Shown: one piece after another, positions 3,119-29,371 of the stretch
How positions within the stretch are numbered: the stretch's first letter is position 1
How the letters are laid out: each line of letters begins with the position of its first letter
Origin: Rhodococcus koreensis
GTDB lineage: Bacteria > Actinomycetota > Actinomycetes > Mycobacteriales > Mycobacteriaceae
Direction of reading: 5' to 3'
Assembly (NCBI RefSeq): GCF_900105905.1
Contig: NZ_FNSV01000004.1
Location: 248,001-312,000 of the forward strand
Length of the DNA stretch: 64,000 nucleotides
Notes under the pieces: model-generated
What the model saw: only the letters and a program-made list of their open reading frames with translations
Told to the model about the DNA's origin: nothing
The model's database searches: none
Translations under genes and position numbers: made by a program

Positions 3119-3745
3119 ATGGAGCTGATGTCGGTGTCGATCAGTGACGCCTCGGTCAAGCGCACCCAGCAAGAACGGCGGGCGATCACACGCAGGCAGA
3201 TACTCGACGCCGCCGTTGCGGTGTTGTTCCGGGACGGCTACTCTGCCGCCACCACGTTGCGGATCCAACACGAGGCGGGGGTGTCCCGCGGCCGTCTCTT
3301 ACAACAATTTCCCTCCCGCGAAGCGCTGCTCGTCGCCGCCGTCCAGCATCTCGCGACGGCGCGGATGGAGGACATGCGGCATCGCGAAGATTGGCCACAC
3401 GACCCCACAGAGCGCATCGACTGGGCGATCGAGATCATGTGGCCCACCTTCCACCAGCCGTATTTCTGGGCCGCGACCGAGCTGTGGCTCGCCTCCCGCG
3501 CCAACGACAAGTTACGCGAAGCGCTGCTGCCGGAGGAGCGCCGGCTGGGCCACCTCGTGAGAGCAACGACCGACGCGTTCTTCGGCGGCGAGTTGTGCGC
3601 ACGCCCGCGCTACGAGTTGGTACGCGAACAACTCAACACCTCGATGCGGGGTGCCGCACTGACCTATGCGCTCGATCCGCGCGATCCCGCCACCGACCCG
3701 CACCTGCACGAGTGGAAACTGATGGCGCGAGAACTGCTTACCTGA
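3119..3745 (+). CDS. TetR-family transcriptional regulator
   Basis: A 208-residue protein. The N-terminal helix-turn-helix spans roughly residues 22-66 (ITRRQILDAAVAVLF, then GVSRGRLLQQFPSREALL). In the recognition helix the common LYRHF is replaced by LLQQF. The C-terminal ligand-binding half has no recognisable signature, so the ligand is unknown. A second ATG at 3128 is an equally possible start. It follows the fadAB terminator, so it has its own promoter or depends on read-through. Its last 8 bp overlap the convergent nitronate monooxygenase gene. A role in controlling fadAB is likely from position only. Confidence 0.88.
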   Translation: MELMSVSISDASVKRTQQERRAITRRQILDAAVAVLFRDGYSAATTLRIQHEAGVSRGRLLQQFPSREALLVAAVQHLATARMEDMRHREDWPHDPTERIDWAIEIMWPTFHQPYFWAATELWLASRANDKLREALLPEERRLGHLVRATTDAFFGGELCARPRYELVREQLNTSMRGAALTYALDPRDPATDPHLHEWKLMARELLT

Positions 3746-4697: not shown

Positions 4698-4800
4698 GTC
4701 AACTCCTTGCGAGAACCACGAGAGGCAGGGTGCGCACCTAAGTAAATGCCGGAAAAGCGGCGATGACGCATGCTAGGTTGAAAATCAAGCTACAACCCCG

Positions 4801-4820
4801 GTAAGTAAATCTCAAGCCAC
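4801..4820 (+). promoter_or_regulatory. Repeated 20-bp box, copy 1
   Basis: GTAAGTAAATC TCA AGCCAC lies 41 bp before the double-TetR start. A near-identical 20-mer (17 of 20 positions, differing only in the central three) lies at 6182-6201 before the first LuxR gene. A shorter TAAGTAAAT also occurs at 4739-4747. AT-rich 9-mers of this kind are uncommon in DNA of this composition. The role, whether operator or activator site, is inferred. Confidence 0.5.
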
Positions 4821-4860
4821 ATCGAATGCGTCGAAAGGGGCGGGAAGCATCGACGAACTA

Positions 4861-6039
4861 GTGCGCCCGAGGCGAGCTCGGCTCACCAGCACTCCGCGTC
4901 CCCGCAACCGCAGGGCCCAGATCCTGGTGGCCGCGAGCGCCCTGTTCTCCGAACGCGGCTACCACAATGTGAGCACCGAGGACATCGCCTCGTCCGTCGG
5001 GATCACCGCCGGGGCCTTGTACCGGCACTTTCGGAGTAAACAGGAATTGCTCGCCTGCACGGTGGCCGAGAGCTTCGATCAGGCGGGTGAGCTGCTGCTC
5101 TCACGCGGAATCGATGACCTCCCGGCGCTGCTGCACGGTCTGGCGGAAACGGCCGGCACTCGACGTGACCTCGGAGTTCTGTGGAATCGCGAGATTCGAC
5201 ACCTGCCACCGGAGCAGCACGCGTCCCTGCGTGGCCGATTGCATGATGTGGTGTCGCGTCTCTCCGCGGCGCTCGGCCATTCCGTGCCGGGGGCGGGCGC
5301 CGCTGACGCGGAACTGCTGGCGTGGTGCACTCTTGCGGTTCTGACCAGCCCGGGCTATCACCGCACCGAGATCCTGCCGGGCCGTTTGATCGACCTGCTC
5401 GCCACCATGTCCGTGGCCGTCAGCGCGGCGCCGCTGAACAGTACAGCTGAACCGGCCGCCGATCTTCCCGGACGGGGCGGCATGGCGCCGGCATCGCGCC
5501 GCGAGGCACTCCTGGGCGCGGCCGCCAGACTGTTCGGCGCGAAGGGATACCAAGCAGTCACGATGGACGAGATCGCAGCCGCTGTGCAGGTCCACAGCGC
5601 CAGCGTGTACCGGCACTTCGATACGAAGGCCGATCTCCTGGCCGCCGTGATCGACCGGGGCGCGGAACCGCTCCAGTTGGGGCTGTCGCAGGCACTGTTC
5701 TCCGCGGACACCTCCCAGGAGGCTCTGGACGCCGCGGTCGATGCGTACATCGCGTTCGCGATGATCCACCACGACCTGCTGGCCGTGCTGACCTGCGAGG
5801 TACTCAGCCTTCCACCGGCCAGACGACACGCTGTGCGCAGCGCGCAGCACGACTACGTCGGGCAGTGGTTCCAACTGCTGCAAGAATCCCGGCCCGAACT
5901 CGACGACACCGAGGTGCGATTTCGTGTTCACGCTGCGCTGACAATCGTCAACGATGTATCCCGGACGGTACGGTTGCGCTGCATGCCCAACGTGCAGGAA
6001 CGTGTGCGCCTGGCCGCCCGCCGCGCATTGTATGGCTGA
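4861..6039 (+). CDS. Tandem (double-domain) TetR-family regulator
   Basis: A 392-residue protein holding two complete TetR DNA-binding domains in one chain. The first is at about residues 18-62 (ILVAASALFSERGYHNV, then GALYRHFRSKQELL). The second is at about residues 212-258 (LLGAAARLFGAKGYQAV, then ASVYRHFDTKADLL). Each is followed by its own ligand-binding-type helical half, so the chain resembles a fused TetR dimer. Family knowledge: TetR proteins normally act as homodimers on palindromes, and a fusion could read two different half-sites. The start is a GTG without a clear ribosome binding site. It is divergent from the nitronate monooxygenase gene. Confidence 0.85.
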   Translation: MRPRRARLTSTPRPRNRRAQILVAASALFSERGYHNVSTEDIASSVGITAGALYRHFRSKQELLACTVAESFDQAGELLLSRGIDDLPALLHGLAETAGTRRDLGVLWNREIRHLPPEQHASLRGRLHDVVSRLSAALGHSVPGAGAADAELLAWCTLAVLTSPGYHRTEILPGRLIDLLATMSVAVSAAPLNSTAEPAADLPGRGGMAPASRREALLGAAARLFGAKGYQAVTMDEIAAAVQVHSASVYRHFDTKADLLAAVIDRGAEPLQLGLSQALFSADTSQEALDAAVDAYIAFAMIHHDLLAVLTCEVLSLPPARRHAVRSAQHDYVGQWFQLLQESRPELDDTEVRFRVHAALTIVNDVSRTVRLRCMPNVQERVRLAARRALYG

Positions 6040-6054
6040 CACTCACCGCCCCCA

Positions 6055-6074
6055 TAGTTAAGGGCGATTCACTA
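6055..6074 (-). promoter_or_regulatory. Candidate TetR-type operator, copy 1 (before LuxR pair)
   Basis: Read on the minus strand, the 20-mer TAGTGAATCGCCCTTAACTA is an imperfect palindrome (7 of 10 half-site positions pair). It shares the 10-base core AGTGAATCGC with sites at 25563-25582 and 29352-29371. It lies between the double-TetR stop and the LuxR pair. Function is inferred from recurrence and symmetry. Confidence 0.5.
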
Positions 6075-6181: not shown

Positions 6182-6201
6182 GTAAGTAAATCGTGAGCCA
6201 C
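6182..6201 (+). promoter_or_regulatory. Repeated 20-bp box, copy 2
   Basis: GTAAGTAAATC GTG AGCCAC lies 100 bp before the first LuxR gene and matches the box at 4801-4820 in 17 of 20 positions. Both copies precede regulator genes. A protein-binding site is the simplest explanation. Confidence 0.5.
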
Positions 6202-6301
6202 GACATGGTGAATTGAAGGCAGGTGCAGTGCCGCAGCATCCCGAGGAGGACGTCGCCGATATGGCGGCAATGGATGCCCCGCACCCCGAGATGGAGGAAC
6301 A

Positions 6302-7414
6302 GTGAATACTTCCGCCGCCCAGCCGTCCGTCGCCCACCGGCTGAGCGAGATGGCGGCCGCGATGCGAGAAATGGCGGGGGTGGAGGTCACCGAGACCCGA
6401 AACGCGGGTGACACGATCGATGAGACCGGTGCTTTGTCCGCCATTCTCGACGAGCTACACCACGCGCAGGGCGTCCTCTACGAGCAGGCCTGCCTGACTC
6501 CGCAGCGCGGTCTGGAACGCGTGCTCGGTTCGCTGGCCCGCCTGCGCTCGGCGGCGACCGGGCCCGGCCAGTTCTTCAGTAGTTCGGCCGAAGAACTGTG
6601 TACCGCAGGGGGATTCGACCGGGTTCTGGTCTCTCGCATCCAGGGTTCGATGTGGATTCCGCACACCCTGCACCTGGTCTCCGAGGCCATCTCCGCCGCG
6701 CTGCGCAACTATCTGAGCGATCTGGAGATCCCCTTGAGCGCGTCGCCGCTCGAGGCCGATGTCGTACGGCGCCGGATCCCGATGCTGGTGAGCGATGCCG
6801 GGGCAGAAACCCGGACGTATCGTCCGCTCATCAGGTTGTCGAGGACCACAAGCTATGTCGTTGCGCCGGTGGTGGTCGACGGAACAGTCGTCGCCCTGCT
6901 TCATGCCGACACCAATATCTCCGGGCGGGTGCTGACGTCCGCGGACCGTGACATCGTTCGGCTCTTCGCCGACGGGCTGGGACCGATCTACGAACGGATG
7001 GTGCTGACCGAGCGACTGCGTGAGCAGCGTGACCGGCTCGGTATGGTCTTCAGTGCCACGGAAGCGATGATCGACGACGTTCACGGTGGCCCGCTGACCC
7101 TCGACGCCCCCATCGGGATGTTGCCTCCGGCGGCTGTCGATCCTTCTCGCCGAGATCGTGGGGCGGCGGGCGGATCGTCGGAGGTGCGGGTCACGGGTCG
7201 GCCCGAACGGCACTTGACCGCACGCGAGATCGATGTGGTGGAACTGCTGTCGAAAGGCGCGTCGAACGCGGAAATCGCCGCCCAGCTCACCGTGTCCGAG
7301 AGCACCGTGAAATCCCACGTGAAACACATCTTCCGCAAGTTGGGTGCCACCAACAGGGCCAGCGCCATCGCGCGATACGGGAAGATGAAACGCTCGATGG
7401 GACGGACACTATGA
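6302..7414 (+). CDS. GAF-domain LuxR-family regulator, first of a pair
   Basis: A 370-residue cytosolic regulator. A GAF-like sensor region lies around residues 85-240 ([11 protein letters not shown], then [20 protein letters not shown]). A helical linker ([16 protein letters not shown]) leads to a C-terminal LuxR helix-turn-helix from about residue 303 ([22 protein letters not shown], with the typical [19 protein letters not shown]). The GTG start has a well-placed GGAGG. It overlaps the next LuxR gene by 4 bp, so the two are translationally coupled. GAF-LuxR proteins usually activate nearby catabolic genes in response to a small molecule. The effector is not predictable here. Confidence 0.88.
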
Positions 7415-8607
7415 CACAGGCATTGATCGCAACGACGCAGCACCAGACTGCACGGGGATCCTTGCAGGGGTGGCGACGCAAAGACATCGAGCTGATCACT
7501 CGGCTGGAGGCCATCCGGGACGAGATCTTCGCTGATGTCGGTTCGACCACTCTTCCGGGGATCCGGCACGAGCGTCCCGCCCATTCCGCAGAGGCGATCT
7601 CAGTCCTGACGCATCACTGCGTCGACGAGCTGCGACGGGCCGCGGCAGCCGACACCGCCAAGGTGGAGCGACTGACCAAGACAGTCCTCGACCTGCAGCA
7701 GGTGGCGATGGATCTGTACCTGAACGAAATGGGCCGCAGGACCGAACGTCTGGCGGAGTGTTCGGCGGGACTCCACCGGTTGCGGACCGTCCCGAGCACC
7801 TCCGACCTCCTCGACCGCCTCTGTGAGGACGTGGCCGTTCGTTGCGGATTCCGGCGGGTGGTGTTGTCGCGGGTCGAGGCGGGAACCTGGAAACCGTGGA
7901 AGGCGTATCTGGGCGAGGGCGATGAATCGGACTCATGGTTCACCGACTGGATCGATCGCGGGATACCGTTCGACGAGCGGGCTCCTGAGGCGCGGCTGCT
8001 GACCGATCATCGGCCGGCGATCGTCTACGACACGGAAAACGCGCCGGTATACCGGCCGATCATCGTCGAGTCGGGTCGCTCACGCTCGTACGTGGTCTCC
8101 GCCCTGGTTCTCGACAACAACGTTGTCGGTTTGCTTCATGCCGACCACTTCCCGGTTCCGAGCCGGATCGACGAGATCGACCGCGACGTCCTGTGGGCCT
8201 TCACCGAAGGGGTCGGTTACATCTACGAGCGGACGTCGCTGATGGAACGGTTGCGCAGCCAACGCGACCAGATCAGGGAAATCCTCTCGTCGACGGTGGC
8301 GACGATGGACGAGCTGTGCGAATCGGGGATGGCCTCGGCCGGGCGGGCAGACTCCGATCCTGCTGGAGTCGACTCGTCGGCGGAGTTCGCCTCGCGTCCC
8401 AGCTTGGTCCCGCTCGCCGAATTCACCTCCCGCGAACAAGAGGTGTTCACATTGATGGCGGCGGGGGCGACCAACAACGACATCGCCGAGTCCCTCGTCA
8501 TCACGGAGGGGACGGTGAAATCGCATGTCAAGCACATCCTGCGGAAGCTCGGTGCGACCAACCGTTCACAGGCCATTGCCTGGTCGATCGGCAACCGCAT
8601 CGCGTAG
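7411..8607 (+). CDS. GAF-domain LuxR-family regulator, second of a pair
   Basis: A 398-residue paralogue of the preceding protein with the same order: N-terminal helices, a GAF-like sensor ([12 protein letters not shown], later [20 protein letters not shown]), a linker and a LuxR HTH from about residue 336 ([41 protein letters not shown] variant with GTVKSH). Its start overlaps the upstream stop as ATGA. The two proteins could form a heterodimer; this is inferred from coupling and similarity. A strong hairpin lies 28 bp after the stop, so the pair is probably its own transcription unit. Confidence 0.88.
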
Positions 8608-15052: not shown

Positions 15053-15673
15053 CTAGGTCGTCGTCGAACTCACGCCGAGGACCGCGAGTGCCGAATCGGC
15101 GAGAATCTCCCGGAGGCGGTCGATCGGTAGCCCGACACTGTGGAACAAGCTGGACTGAATCGCCCCGATCGCGGCGTGCACGACCGCCCGGGCTTCTCCG
15201 TCGTCGAGATCCGAGCGCAGTTCGTCGACCAGGTGTACCCACTCCTCGATGTAGAGTCGCTGCTTTCGGCGCAGGCGCCGGCGGTCGTCTTCGGGGAGGT
15301 TGTGGATTTCGTTGTGGTAGACCTGCGCGACCTCGCGTTTTCCCACGACAAACTCGATCTGTCCTGCGACCAGATCGCGTAGTGCCTGCTCGAGTCCTAT
15401 ACCGCTGTCGAGGGTGCGCTCCGCGTCTTCGAGGAGGCGGTCGATCGCGCTGTCGAAGAGTTCGACGAGGACGGCGGACTTGCTGTCGAAGTGCCGGTAG
15501 ATCGCCGAGCCGGTGATCCCGGAGGCTGCACCGATGTCGGCCATCGACACGGAATTGAAGCCATTGCGCGCCACCAGGTCGGCCGCGGCGGCCAAGATCC
15601 TGTAGCGGCGCGCCGGGTCCCGTGTGCGTACCGGCCCGATTCTGTCCTCGATCATCCCACTACTCTCCACCAT
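15053..15673 (-). CDS. TetR-family regulator at the end of the atu-type operon
   Basis: A 206-residue TetR protein. The HTH is at about residues 22-66 (RILAAAADLVARNGFNSVSMADIG, with recognition helix SAIYRHFDSKSAVLVE). The C-terminal half is typical of the family and carries no ligand signature. The ATG at 15673 avoids overlap with the upstream ligase; 15694 is a possible longer start. It begins 7 bp after the ligase stop, so it is the last gene of the minus-strand operon that starts at 25485. The palindrome at 25563-25582 before the operon is a natural candidate for its operator. Confidence 0.88.
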   Translation of the reverse strand: MVESSGMIEDRIGPVRTRDPARRYRILAAAADLVARNGFNSVSMADIGAASGITGSAIYRHFDSKSAVLVELFDSAIDRLLEDAERTLDSGIGLEQALRDLVAGQIEFVVGKREVAQVYHNEIHNLPEDDRRRLRRKQRLYIEEWVHLVDELRSDLDDGEARAVVHAAIGAIQSSLFHSVGLPIDRLREILADSALAVLGVSSTTT

Positions 15674-15680
15674 CGTCCTA

Positions 15681-17264
15681 TCACCTTCTCTCATAGTGCT
15701 CGGCAAACCGGTCCCGAACCACGTTCTTTTGGATCTTGCCAGTCGAGGTTCGCGGGAGCGCATCGACCACGATGATCGACTTCGGGGTCTTGTACGGATC
15801 GATCAACTGTTTGATCTTGTCGATCAGTGACGCGGGGTCGACCGTTGCCCCTGTTGCCGGCACCACGACCGCGGTGATCGCTTCGCTCCATCGGTGGTGG
15901 GGAAGCCCGACGACAGTTGCCTCCGCGATGCGCGGATCGGCCTGATAGATGGCGCGCTCCACTTCGAGGGAGGAGACGTTCTCGCCGCCGGTCTTGATGA
16001 CGTCCTTGAACCGGTCGCTGAACCAGAGGATACCGTCGTCGTCGAACCGTCCGATGTCGCCGGAATGGAACCACCCGTGGTCGAAGGCCTTCGTGGTGGC
16101 CTCGGGGTTGTCCAGGTATTCGGTCATGGTGTGTGGGCTTCGGTAGACGATCTCTCCCTCGTCCCCCGTGGGCAGGAGTCCGCCGTCCTGTCCCATGATC
16201 GCCGCTTGTACCCCGATCACCGGAGTTCCGACAGCGCCGGTGTGGGTCAACTGGTGTTCGGGTCGGAACAGCGTGGTCGTCGGGCTCATCTCCGTTTGGC
16301 CGAACAGCAGGTAGAAGTCGCATGCAAAGACCTCGATGCAGCGTTCGATGAGATGCCGCGGCATGGGGGCCATGGCGTACAGCGCGCGGCGAAGCGAGGA
16401 AAGATTACGGAAACCGATGTCCGAATGCTCGAGCATTTCGCTGTACATCATCGGGAGGGCGAAGATCTGGGTGATTCGTTCGGATTCGATGAGTGCCAAC
16501 AGGCGGCGAGCGTCGAAGCGTCGTTCGATGAAGATCGTCGCTCCGACGAGGATCGCGGCGGTGCAGTGGGTGTTGAGTTGCGCGGTGTGGAACATCGGCA
16601 TCATTGCCACGAACCGGTCGTCCTCACGGAACTGCGCCTCGAGCGCCATGGTCATCGACTCGAGGTAGATGGCGGCGTGGTTTCCGACCACCCCTTTCGG
16701 AAACGAGGTGGTGCCACTGGTGTACAGGTACGACAGCGGTGCGCGGTCGGCGATCACATGCTCAGGTTCGGAATCCGGCAAACCGCTGGCCAGCTCCGCG
16801 AAGGCTGTGACGGTGGGATCACCCGAGACCGCGTCGCCGCCCAGGAGAAAGATGTCAACGCCGCCGACGGAATCGGCGAGGGCATCGTGGACTCGCGGCA
16901 GGAATTCGTTCTCGACGACGACCGCTTTGGCCGCCGAGTGGTCAAGCACGTAGGAGATTTCGCCTGTGCCCCAGCCAAGATTGATCGGAACGCACACGAG
17001 CCCCAGTTTCGCGCAGGCGTAGTAGGTGACGAGGAACTCCGCGCAATTACCGGACGCGAGGGCGAGCGCGTCGCCGCTGCGAAGACCGTGACGGTGCAGC
17101 CCGTGTGAGACCCGGTTGACCCAGTTGTTGAACTCGCGGTAGGTGAATCGGCGGTCCCCGTCGACCAGCGCCAGTGCCTCGGGTCTGCGCCACGCCGACC
17201 GGGTGAGGCTGTCACCGACGTTGATCCGGTGGATCAGATTGCGGCCGATTTCGGTGGTGGACAT
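15681..17264 (-). CDS. Acyl-CoA synthetase (AtuH-like)
   Basis: A 527-residue ANL-superfamily ligase. The adenylate-forming motif LYTSGTTSFPKGVVG is near residues 177-191, DRFKDVIKTGGENVSSLEVE lies in the C-terminal hinge, and the catalytic lysine is in RTSTGKIQKN close to the end. The ATG at 17264 (N-terminus MSTTEIGRNLIHRINVGDSL) is used because the upstream frame runs into the acyl-CoA dehydrogenase gene. In the Atu context it would activate citronellate or a related branched acid. It is 29 bp downstream of the dehydrogenase. Confidence 0.88.
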   Translation of the reverse strand: MSTTEIGRNLIHRINVGDSLTRSAWRRPEALALVDGDRRFTYREFNNWVNRVSHGLHRHGLRSGDALALASGNCAEFLVTYYACAKLGLVCVPINLGWGTGEISYVLDHSAAKAVVVENEFLPRVHDALADSVGGVDIFLLGGDAVSGDPTVTAFAELASGLPDSEPEHVIADRAPLSYLYTSGTTSFPKGVVGNHAAIYLESMTMALEAQFREDDRFVAMMPMFHTAQLNTHCTAAILVGATIFIERRFDARRLLALIESERITQIFALPMMYSEMLEHSDIGFRNLSSLRRALYAMAPMPRHLIERCIEVFACDFYLLFGQTEMSPTTTLFRPEHQLTHTGAVGTPVIGVQAAIMGQDGGLLPTGDEGEIVYRSPHTMTEYLDNPEATTKAFDHGWFHSGDIGRFDDDGILWFSDRFKDVIKTGGENVSSLEVERAIYQADPRIAEATVVGLPHHRWSEAITAVVVPATGATVDPASLIDKIKQLIDPYKTPKSIIVVDALPRTSTGKIQKNVVRDRFAEHYERR

Positions 17265-25485: not shown

Positions 25486-25562
25486 CCGTACGCCTTTCTG
25501 TCAGATCTGGGGACTCTCACCGACGAGGGCGAGCATCGAAGCTGTGACCAGAGTAACCCAAA

Positions 25563-25582
25563 AGTGAATCGCCGTACACTTA
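25563..25582. promoter_or_regulatory. Candidate TetR-type operator, copy 2 (before atu operon)
   Basis: AAGTGAATCGCCGTACACTT is an imperfect palindrome (7 of 10 positions pair) located 78 bp upstream of the carboxyltransferase start and 131 bp upstream of the flavin reductase start. It shares AGTGAATCGC with two other sites in the window. It could control both divergent units. Function is inferred. Confidence 0.55.
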
Positions 25583-29107: not shown

Positions 29108-29282
29108 TCGTGTACGCGCCGAGAACCCCATCCGCGCGCGGCGACAGCAGGGGCGACAGGGGCCTGTAGCCGCGTCGCCGGCGGTTGTCTCCTTGCCGCT
29201 GGGCGGGTCGGCCGTTCCCTACGCCGCTACGGGAGGTCCCACGGGCGAAAGTACATTGCGGATCACTTTCTCCTCCCCTCAT

Positions 29283-29351: not shown

Positions 29352-29371
29352 AAGTGAATCGCAATTTACTT
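29352..29371. promoter_or_regulatory. Candidate TetR-type operator, copy 3 (before mce operon)
   Basis: AAGTGAATCGCAATTTACTT is the most symmetric of three related sites (8 of 10 half-site positions pair). Its right half reads AAGTAAATTG on the other strand, which contains the AAGTAAAT box seen before the double-TetR and LuxR genes. It sits 13 bp after the G-box and 131 bp before the first mce gene. Confidence 0.58.

Follow-up and report, generated by a model that had tools for sequence, protein, structure and literature searches.

What kind of DNA site is read by a regulator that carries two TetR units in one chain? The question is raised by the gene at 4861-6039 (+ strand) of the window, the whole 64-kb stretch of DNA that was analysed: a single open frame with a GTG start at 4861 and a stop at 6039, encoding 392 amino acids. 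TetR_N was matched in two stretches of this chain (Pfam, E 1.7e-36), which sets it apart from the classical TetR with one unit per chain. The first unit, residues 12-190 (4894-5430, +), carries the recognition helix ITAGALYRHF at 48-57, and the second, residues 209-392 (5485-6036, +), carries VHSASVYRHF at 244-253; a linker, residues 191-208 (5431-5484, +), lies between them, and the two halves share 31% identity over 140 columns. Residues 283-367 match TetR_C_24, i.e. the second ligand domain, while Pfam recovered no named C-terminal domain in the first half, which is nevertheless modelled as helical up to residue 189. The proposal of an earlier note, two TetR domains in one chain with an HTH and a ligand-type domain in each half, is confirmed by these features together with an alignment to Mce3R along the whole chain (residues 12-382). 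The top NCBIfam model, SACE_7040 (NF050111), was matched in two stretches as well, at 183 bits versus the 250 needed. Full-length copies are present in another genome of the same genus (96% identical) and in four named Frankiaceae records (51-53% identical), and paralogues occur in the source genome, so that the fusion is no chance join. The chain is a double-TetR regulator, a new member of an already known kind.

Double TFRs are an infrequent subfamily, with 204 predicted in Actinomycetes as quoted in PMC11667970, which presents the structure of Mce3R as the first of any double TetR. According to the same paper, a single Mce3R chain is seen by cryo-EM on a non-palindromic site in the shape of an asymmetric TetR-like unit; no complex was obtained with the first half alone, and high-affinity binding was lost when R53 of the first head was changed (R53A). 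The idea of a fused pseudo-dimer is thus already established for a relative. Mce3R (9b7y) is also the closest PDB match of the present chain (phmmer, E 1.2e-42, residues 12-382), the second match, 4g12, covering residues 191-373 only. Template-free AlphaFold2 prediction with five input sequences yielded five models with mean pLDDT spanning 54.8 to 79.2, the best reaching 79.2 with a pTM of 0.78 and falling below 50 at residues 1-13 and, in the linker, at 193-208. The top Foldseek match of this model was again 9b7y (TM 0.74, rmsd 6.0), and VIA-align superposed the two with Z 37.1 over 376 residues at 3.8 A, spanning residues 8-392, the next-ranked row having Z 19.3 over residues 210-392 only. 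Considering that these matches run along both halves, the model predicts an arrangement of the halves roughly like that of Mce3R. Modelled as a single chain, both would hence pack within it as an asymmetric TetR-like unit, a prediction the confidence of which is given by pLDDT and pTM, the inter-half error not being among the values.

With the query counted, six full-length double TetRs are encoded by the source genome (10.3 Mb, 9 contigs, contamination estimate 8%; the contig bearing the window is 326 kb long). Three of the five paralogues (L002, L003 and L006) are clustered in a stretch of about 24 kb, at 6.038-6.062 Mb of contig C3. Of 28 genomes of the genus, 25 have one or more matches at E up to 1e-40, and matches at 1e-55 were recovered in 48 of 151 genomes of a family sample. 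In a tree of 98 loci and Mce3R, the query, its counterpart in genome G009 and four Frankiaceae proteins form one clade (support 100/100), and a separate one (100/100) joins Mce3R, which the program marks as a long branch, to four further proteins of the genus. The query is thus a double TFR without being the Mce3R orthologue, an assignment excluded by the separate clade and by differences at three of four chain-interface residues. Within the Mce3R clade, and compared with the other rows, the second HTH of L063, L065 and L076 lacks four residues immediately ahead of the recognition helix, and one head may be altered in these proteins.

In the DNA beside the double-TetR genes, exact AAGTRAAT is present within 300 bp of 19 of the 25 genes of clades A-C (A 6/6, B 8/14, C 5/5), beside 3 of 73 genes outside these clades and inside 0 of 25 gene bodies. 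Letter permutations of the motif (690, run without the target words) averaged 0.36 of the 25 genes, the largest count, 11, belonging to a one-base shift of the motif; the controls with most loci overlap it. The right half, four bases further on, differs by clade: nnnnACnn in A, a core of nCTCAT in five loci of B, and GTTAAGGT in all five loci of C. Neither the four clade D nor the four clade E loci have the exact motif within 300 bp, and the DNA upstream of the clade D genes resembles the tail of a different gene. In clade B, L003, L028, L026 and L006 have no clear site. None was found within 300 bp of L027 and L031, where the upstream DNA differs. A scan of ten genomes with the clade B operator gave one exact match in each of five, every one adjoining the double-TetR gene, plus nine one-mismatch rows, which were taken as noise since the reversed control matches too. 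A separate observation concerns the DNA upstream of the double-TetR genes of L024, L025, L047, L032 and L033, where the AAGTGAAT site is preceded by another conserved block, GGTAAGRTTCYCTAACC, which has the look of an inverted repeat and may be the site of another regulator.

How far do these footprints depart from a palindrome? At a spacer of four, 25 of 28 sites agree with the palindromic partner ATTYACTT at 3-6 of 8 positions, and none agrees at more than 6; the other three, namely the site at 4740 of the window, the corresponding one in G009 and that of L002, agree at 1 of 8. We read the right half as the diverged half of an ancestral palindrome. The 28 sites were picked by an exact left half and therefore cannot show that this half is the better conserved one; that it is so is suggested by alignments made without choosing sites. 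The incomplete partner matches at all 28 clade A-C sites, together with the clade C right half, which is kept at every locus and far from a palindromic partner, speak against an arrangement in which two chains associate through like units, N with N and C with C, to form two classical symmetric modules binding palindromes. Such a dimer of chains has the precedent of typical TetRs, which are homodimers on palindromes (PMC11667970), and the site at 29352 of the window is almost a palindrome of AAGTRAAT; against this, the modelled halves are placed as in Mce3R, the single chain of which binds DNA, in contrast to its isolated first half. We consider the pairing of chains unlikely.

In the preferred alternative, one chain on two unequal half-sites, each head would have its own half to read. 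The N-terminal recognition helix is near-constant in most clade A-C proteins (ITAGALYRHF, ITAPALYRHF), and the C-terminal one is variable (e.g. VTSAGVYRHF, TTGPNVYNHF, VSGPNLYSYF). AAGTRAAT accompanies the N-helix [IM]T[AP][GP]ALYRH in 18 of 24 loci versus 4 of 74 with other helices, an association whose p-value is untrustworthy because the sequences are related and the pattern was chosen after viewing the helices; four clade D genes, L027 and L031 make up the six misses. Among 11 loci recovered later, AAGTAAAT is present in 6 of 7 with this helix and in 0 of 4 without it. From this we infer that the N-head would read AAGTRAAT and the C-head the right half. It is about an even bet that the family uses a modular two-part code, with the N-head a near-fixed AAGTRAAT reader in several subfamilies and the C-head diversifying, so that the right half alone would separate paralogues, the fusion having freed one half-site. 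The conserved footprints of one constant and one variable half-site beside double-TetR genes appear to be new here: among the papers listed by a literature search, in which subscription journals are thinly covered, a single one deals with the structure of a double TFR, and no listing describes such a pair of half-sites.

Within the window, the general rule (no more than one mismatch in the left half, AC in register, 4 or more of 8 in the partner) finds six places, at 4803, 6055, 6184, 25562, 29249 and 29352, versus a Markov mean of 0.36 and a maximum of 2, a count that is only descriptive as the rule was partly drawn from the same sites. The places lie ahead of the double-TetR gene, of the LuxR pair and of the carboxylase and mce operons, and all six are kept under the same rule in G009, where contig C2 919000-957000 (L158, L159) also holds the double-TetR gene. 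Candidate operator O1, AAGTAAATctcaAGCCACAT (4803-4822, +), lies before the double-TetR gene and has a site in the same place in the Frankiaceae orthologues; O2, AAGTAAATcgtgAGCCACGA (6184-6203, +), lies before the LuxR pair and is conserved in the orthologue alignments. A lone AAGTAAAT without recognisable right half is found at 4740-4747 (+), in the interval between a nitronate-monooxygenase-like gene and the double-TetR gene. Three of the places had been named in the earlier note: TAGTGAATcgccCTTAACTA (6055-6074, -) before the LuxR pair, AAGTGAATcgccGTACACTT (25562-25581, +) before the acyl-CoA carboxylase operon, and the nearly palindromic AAGTGAATcgcaATTTACTT (29352-29371, no strand assigned) before the mce operon. 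The further candidate AAGTACATtgcgGATCACTT (29249-29268, +), with one mismatch in the left half, also precedes the mce operon, and forms with 29352-29371 an operator-like pair 103 bp apart.

The half-sites quoted in the earlier note are present in the window, AAGTGAAT at 25562 and 29352, GTACACTT at 25574, ATTTACTT at 29364 and, on the minus strand, CTTAACTA at 6055, where the left half is TAGTGAAT, one base from AAGTGAAT. Its three sites fit the layout of one constant and one diverged half; the best-conserved sites, from the genus to Frankiaceae, are however those at 4803 and 6184, and the site at 29352, AAGTGAATn4ATTTACTT, is an almost perfect palindrome that a classical homodimer could read. 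Imperfect palindromes are also used by many homodimeric TetRs. Exact AGTGAATCGCn5ACT occurs in three places of the genome (6055, 25562 and 29352), with three more at one mismatch. Its extended form AAGTGAATCGCn5ACTT was found, in the rows of a scan of 397 genomes of the order, at two sites of the source genome only, and this sub-motif therefore gives no wider footprint; G009, which has the motif, was not among the rows. TAAGTRAAT occurs 7 times in the source genome versus 4 for the reversed pattern and is not in excess by itself. Three of the seven flank the double-TetR gene and a fourth is found some 120-160 bp upstream of L002, the closest paralogue; only the clustering at the double-TetR gene is striking.

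To whom do the near-palindromes belong? Those at 6055, 25562, 29249 and 29352 could be sites of another regulator, e.g. one of the two single TetR genes of the window (15053-15763 and 3119-3745), leaving to the double TetR only the AAGTAAAT sites at 4803, 6184 and perhaps 4740. Three of the near-palindromes share AGTGAATCGC with G, whereas the clade A sites within 300 bp are all AAGTAAAT, and the near-palindromes precede lipid operons. They nevertheless match the double-TetR sites in half-site, spacer and position of the AC, and for the TetR at 15053 ownership is not supported, as a palindrome-like site (at least 13 of 16) accompanies 1 of 6 orthologues only (L164, in loci of 3.2-3.7 kb). We regard such a division of the sites as a serious possibility, if a somewhat doubtful one. 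The families encoded in the window include an enoyl-CoA hydratase/3-hydroxyacyl-CoA dehydrogenase, a nitronate monooxygenase, SnoaL-like and AMP-binding proteins, an aldehyde dehydrogenase, a carboxyl transferase, an MlaE permease and Mce proteins, the mce operon starting about 23 kb from the double-TetR gene.

The genes following the double-TetR gene raise the same question for the AAGTAAAT sites. GAF-LuxR regulator 1 (6302-7414, +) and LuxR regulator 2, which has a weak GAF match (7411-8607, +), were assigned by Pfam and are conserved neighbours by flank comparison. A relative of the first lies downstream of the query gene, as it does at all 9 of the other clade A loci that were tested; the second was seen in four loci with 4-kb flanks, the other new loci having flanks of 1.5 kb. 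As the LuxR1 relative follows at every clade A locus tested, gene order cannot separate the double TetR from the LuxR proteins there, and the sites might be bound by the adjacent GAF-LuxR regulators or by another protein altogether. The clade B and C loci, however, were found via the double-TetR protein alone and have AAGTRAAT beside the gene. The LuxR1 relative is absent downstream of L178-L180 within 1.5-kb flanks, and L180, without a LuxR1 match there, has two AAGTAAAT sites; moreover, the motif tracks the N-terminal recognition helix of the double TetR. Binding of these sites by a protein other than the double TetR is in our view improbable.

The layout also recurs in orthologues collected after the site rule was set. 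A class-wide search of 394 genomes returned 15 rows besides the gene itself, four being the Frankiaceae loci already included and 11 being new. The five nearest new orthologues (47-52% identity) have AAGTAAAT-N8-AC before and after the gene in 10 of 10 cases, 7 of the 10 sites passing the stricter rule (partner at least 4 of 8), but they are close kin of the Frankiaceae loci, from the same family, and hence not independent. An alignment of the nine loci, four old and five new, with sites not preselected, is conserved as GAAGTAAA-CA---GTAAC-T before the gene and as AAGTAAAT---G--ACACA after it. The two sites of L180 lie before its double-TetR gene (-84 and -19) and have another right half; L178, L179, L181, L182 and L183 show no site within 400 bp, L178 and L179 having a similar N-helix. 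As a side observation, L180 and L088 have similar C-terminal helices (IAGPSIYHHF, IAGPSIYNHF) and similar right halves (tgtcATTAG, tgtcACTAG), and the L093 flank carries AAGTGAACtttcACTAG.

Aggregated, we favor, with a probability of roughly 0.7, a single-chain pseudo-dimer regulator that acts on sites with unequal halves and controls its own gene and the GAF-LuxR genes, possibly also the carboxylase and mce operons. The idea of the earlier note, a pseudo-dimer reading an asymmetric operator, gains from the Mce3R precedent, the match of the model along both halves and the recurrence across genomes of operators in which one half is constant and the other diverged; it holds less well for the particular sites that were named. 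As described for Mce3R, the halves would pack against each other inside a single chain; the resulting pseudo-dimer, with its two unequal HTH heads, would span the 20-bp candidate site AAGTAAAT-N4-nnnnACnn, the N-terminal head (ITAGALYRHF) presumably on the constant half and the C-terminal head (VHSASVYRHF) on the variable one. Binding to the candidate sites is proposed here from their sequence. Targets would be the regulator's own gene, through 4803, and the neighbouring GAF-LuxR genes, through 6184, with the acyl-CoA carboxylase (25562) and mce (29249, 29352) operons as possible additions, this wider regulon being the weakest part of the reading. The protein is most likely a repressor, and its ligand may be lipid-like or acyl-CoA-like.

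The locus suggests that asymmetric operator reading is general among double TetRs. Fusion would have freed one half-site to evolve alone, which a homodimer cannot do, and subfamilies with a common left half and different right halves would make half-site evolution testable head by head. The candidate operators are short, and the locus is a possible source of parts for single-chain repressors that act on non-palindromic sites.

Several known systems resemble the query in part. BkaR (6yj2) and Fad35R (4g12) resemble its second unit, at 29% identity and with Z 19.0 and 17.8, but have one TetR unit per chain as opposed to two, BkaR acting as a homodimer on a palindrome (PMC4482099); the SACE_7040 model, too, spans a single TetR unit (186 positions). 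Mce3R (Rv1963c) of Mycobacterium tuberculosis shares 31-32% identity with the query. The Mce3R residues listed near DNA are identical in the query at 7 of 12 positions of the first head and 5 of 7 of the second, the contacts R49, T241 and P253 being replaced by G, M and A, and the chain-interface residues R272, W276, C278 and R283 are identical at 1 of 4. Unlike Mce3R, the query is followed by GAF-LuxR genes; its candidate site is AAGTAAAT-N4-nnnnACnn. Paired operator sites are described for the mce3 promoter (PMC11667970). Common to both regulators are two TetR units per chain, an mce operon and lipid genes nearby, and multiple operator sites, which in the query are candidates.
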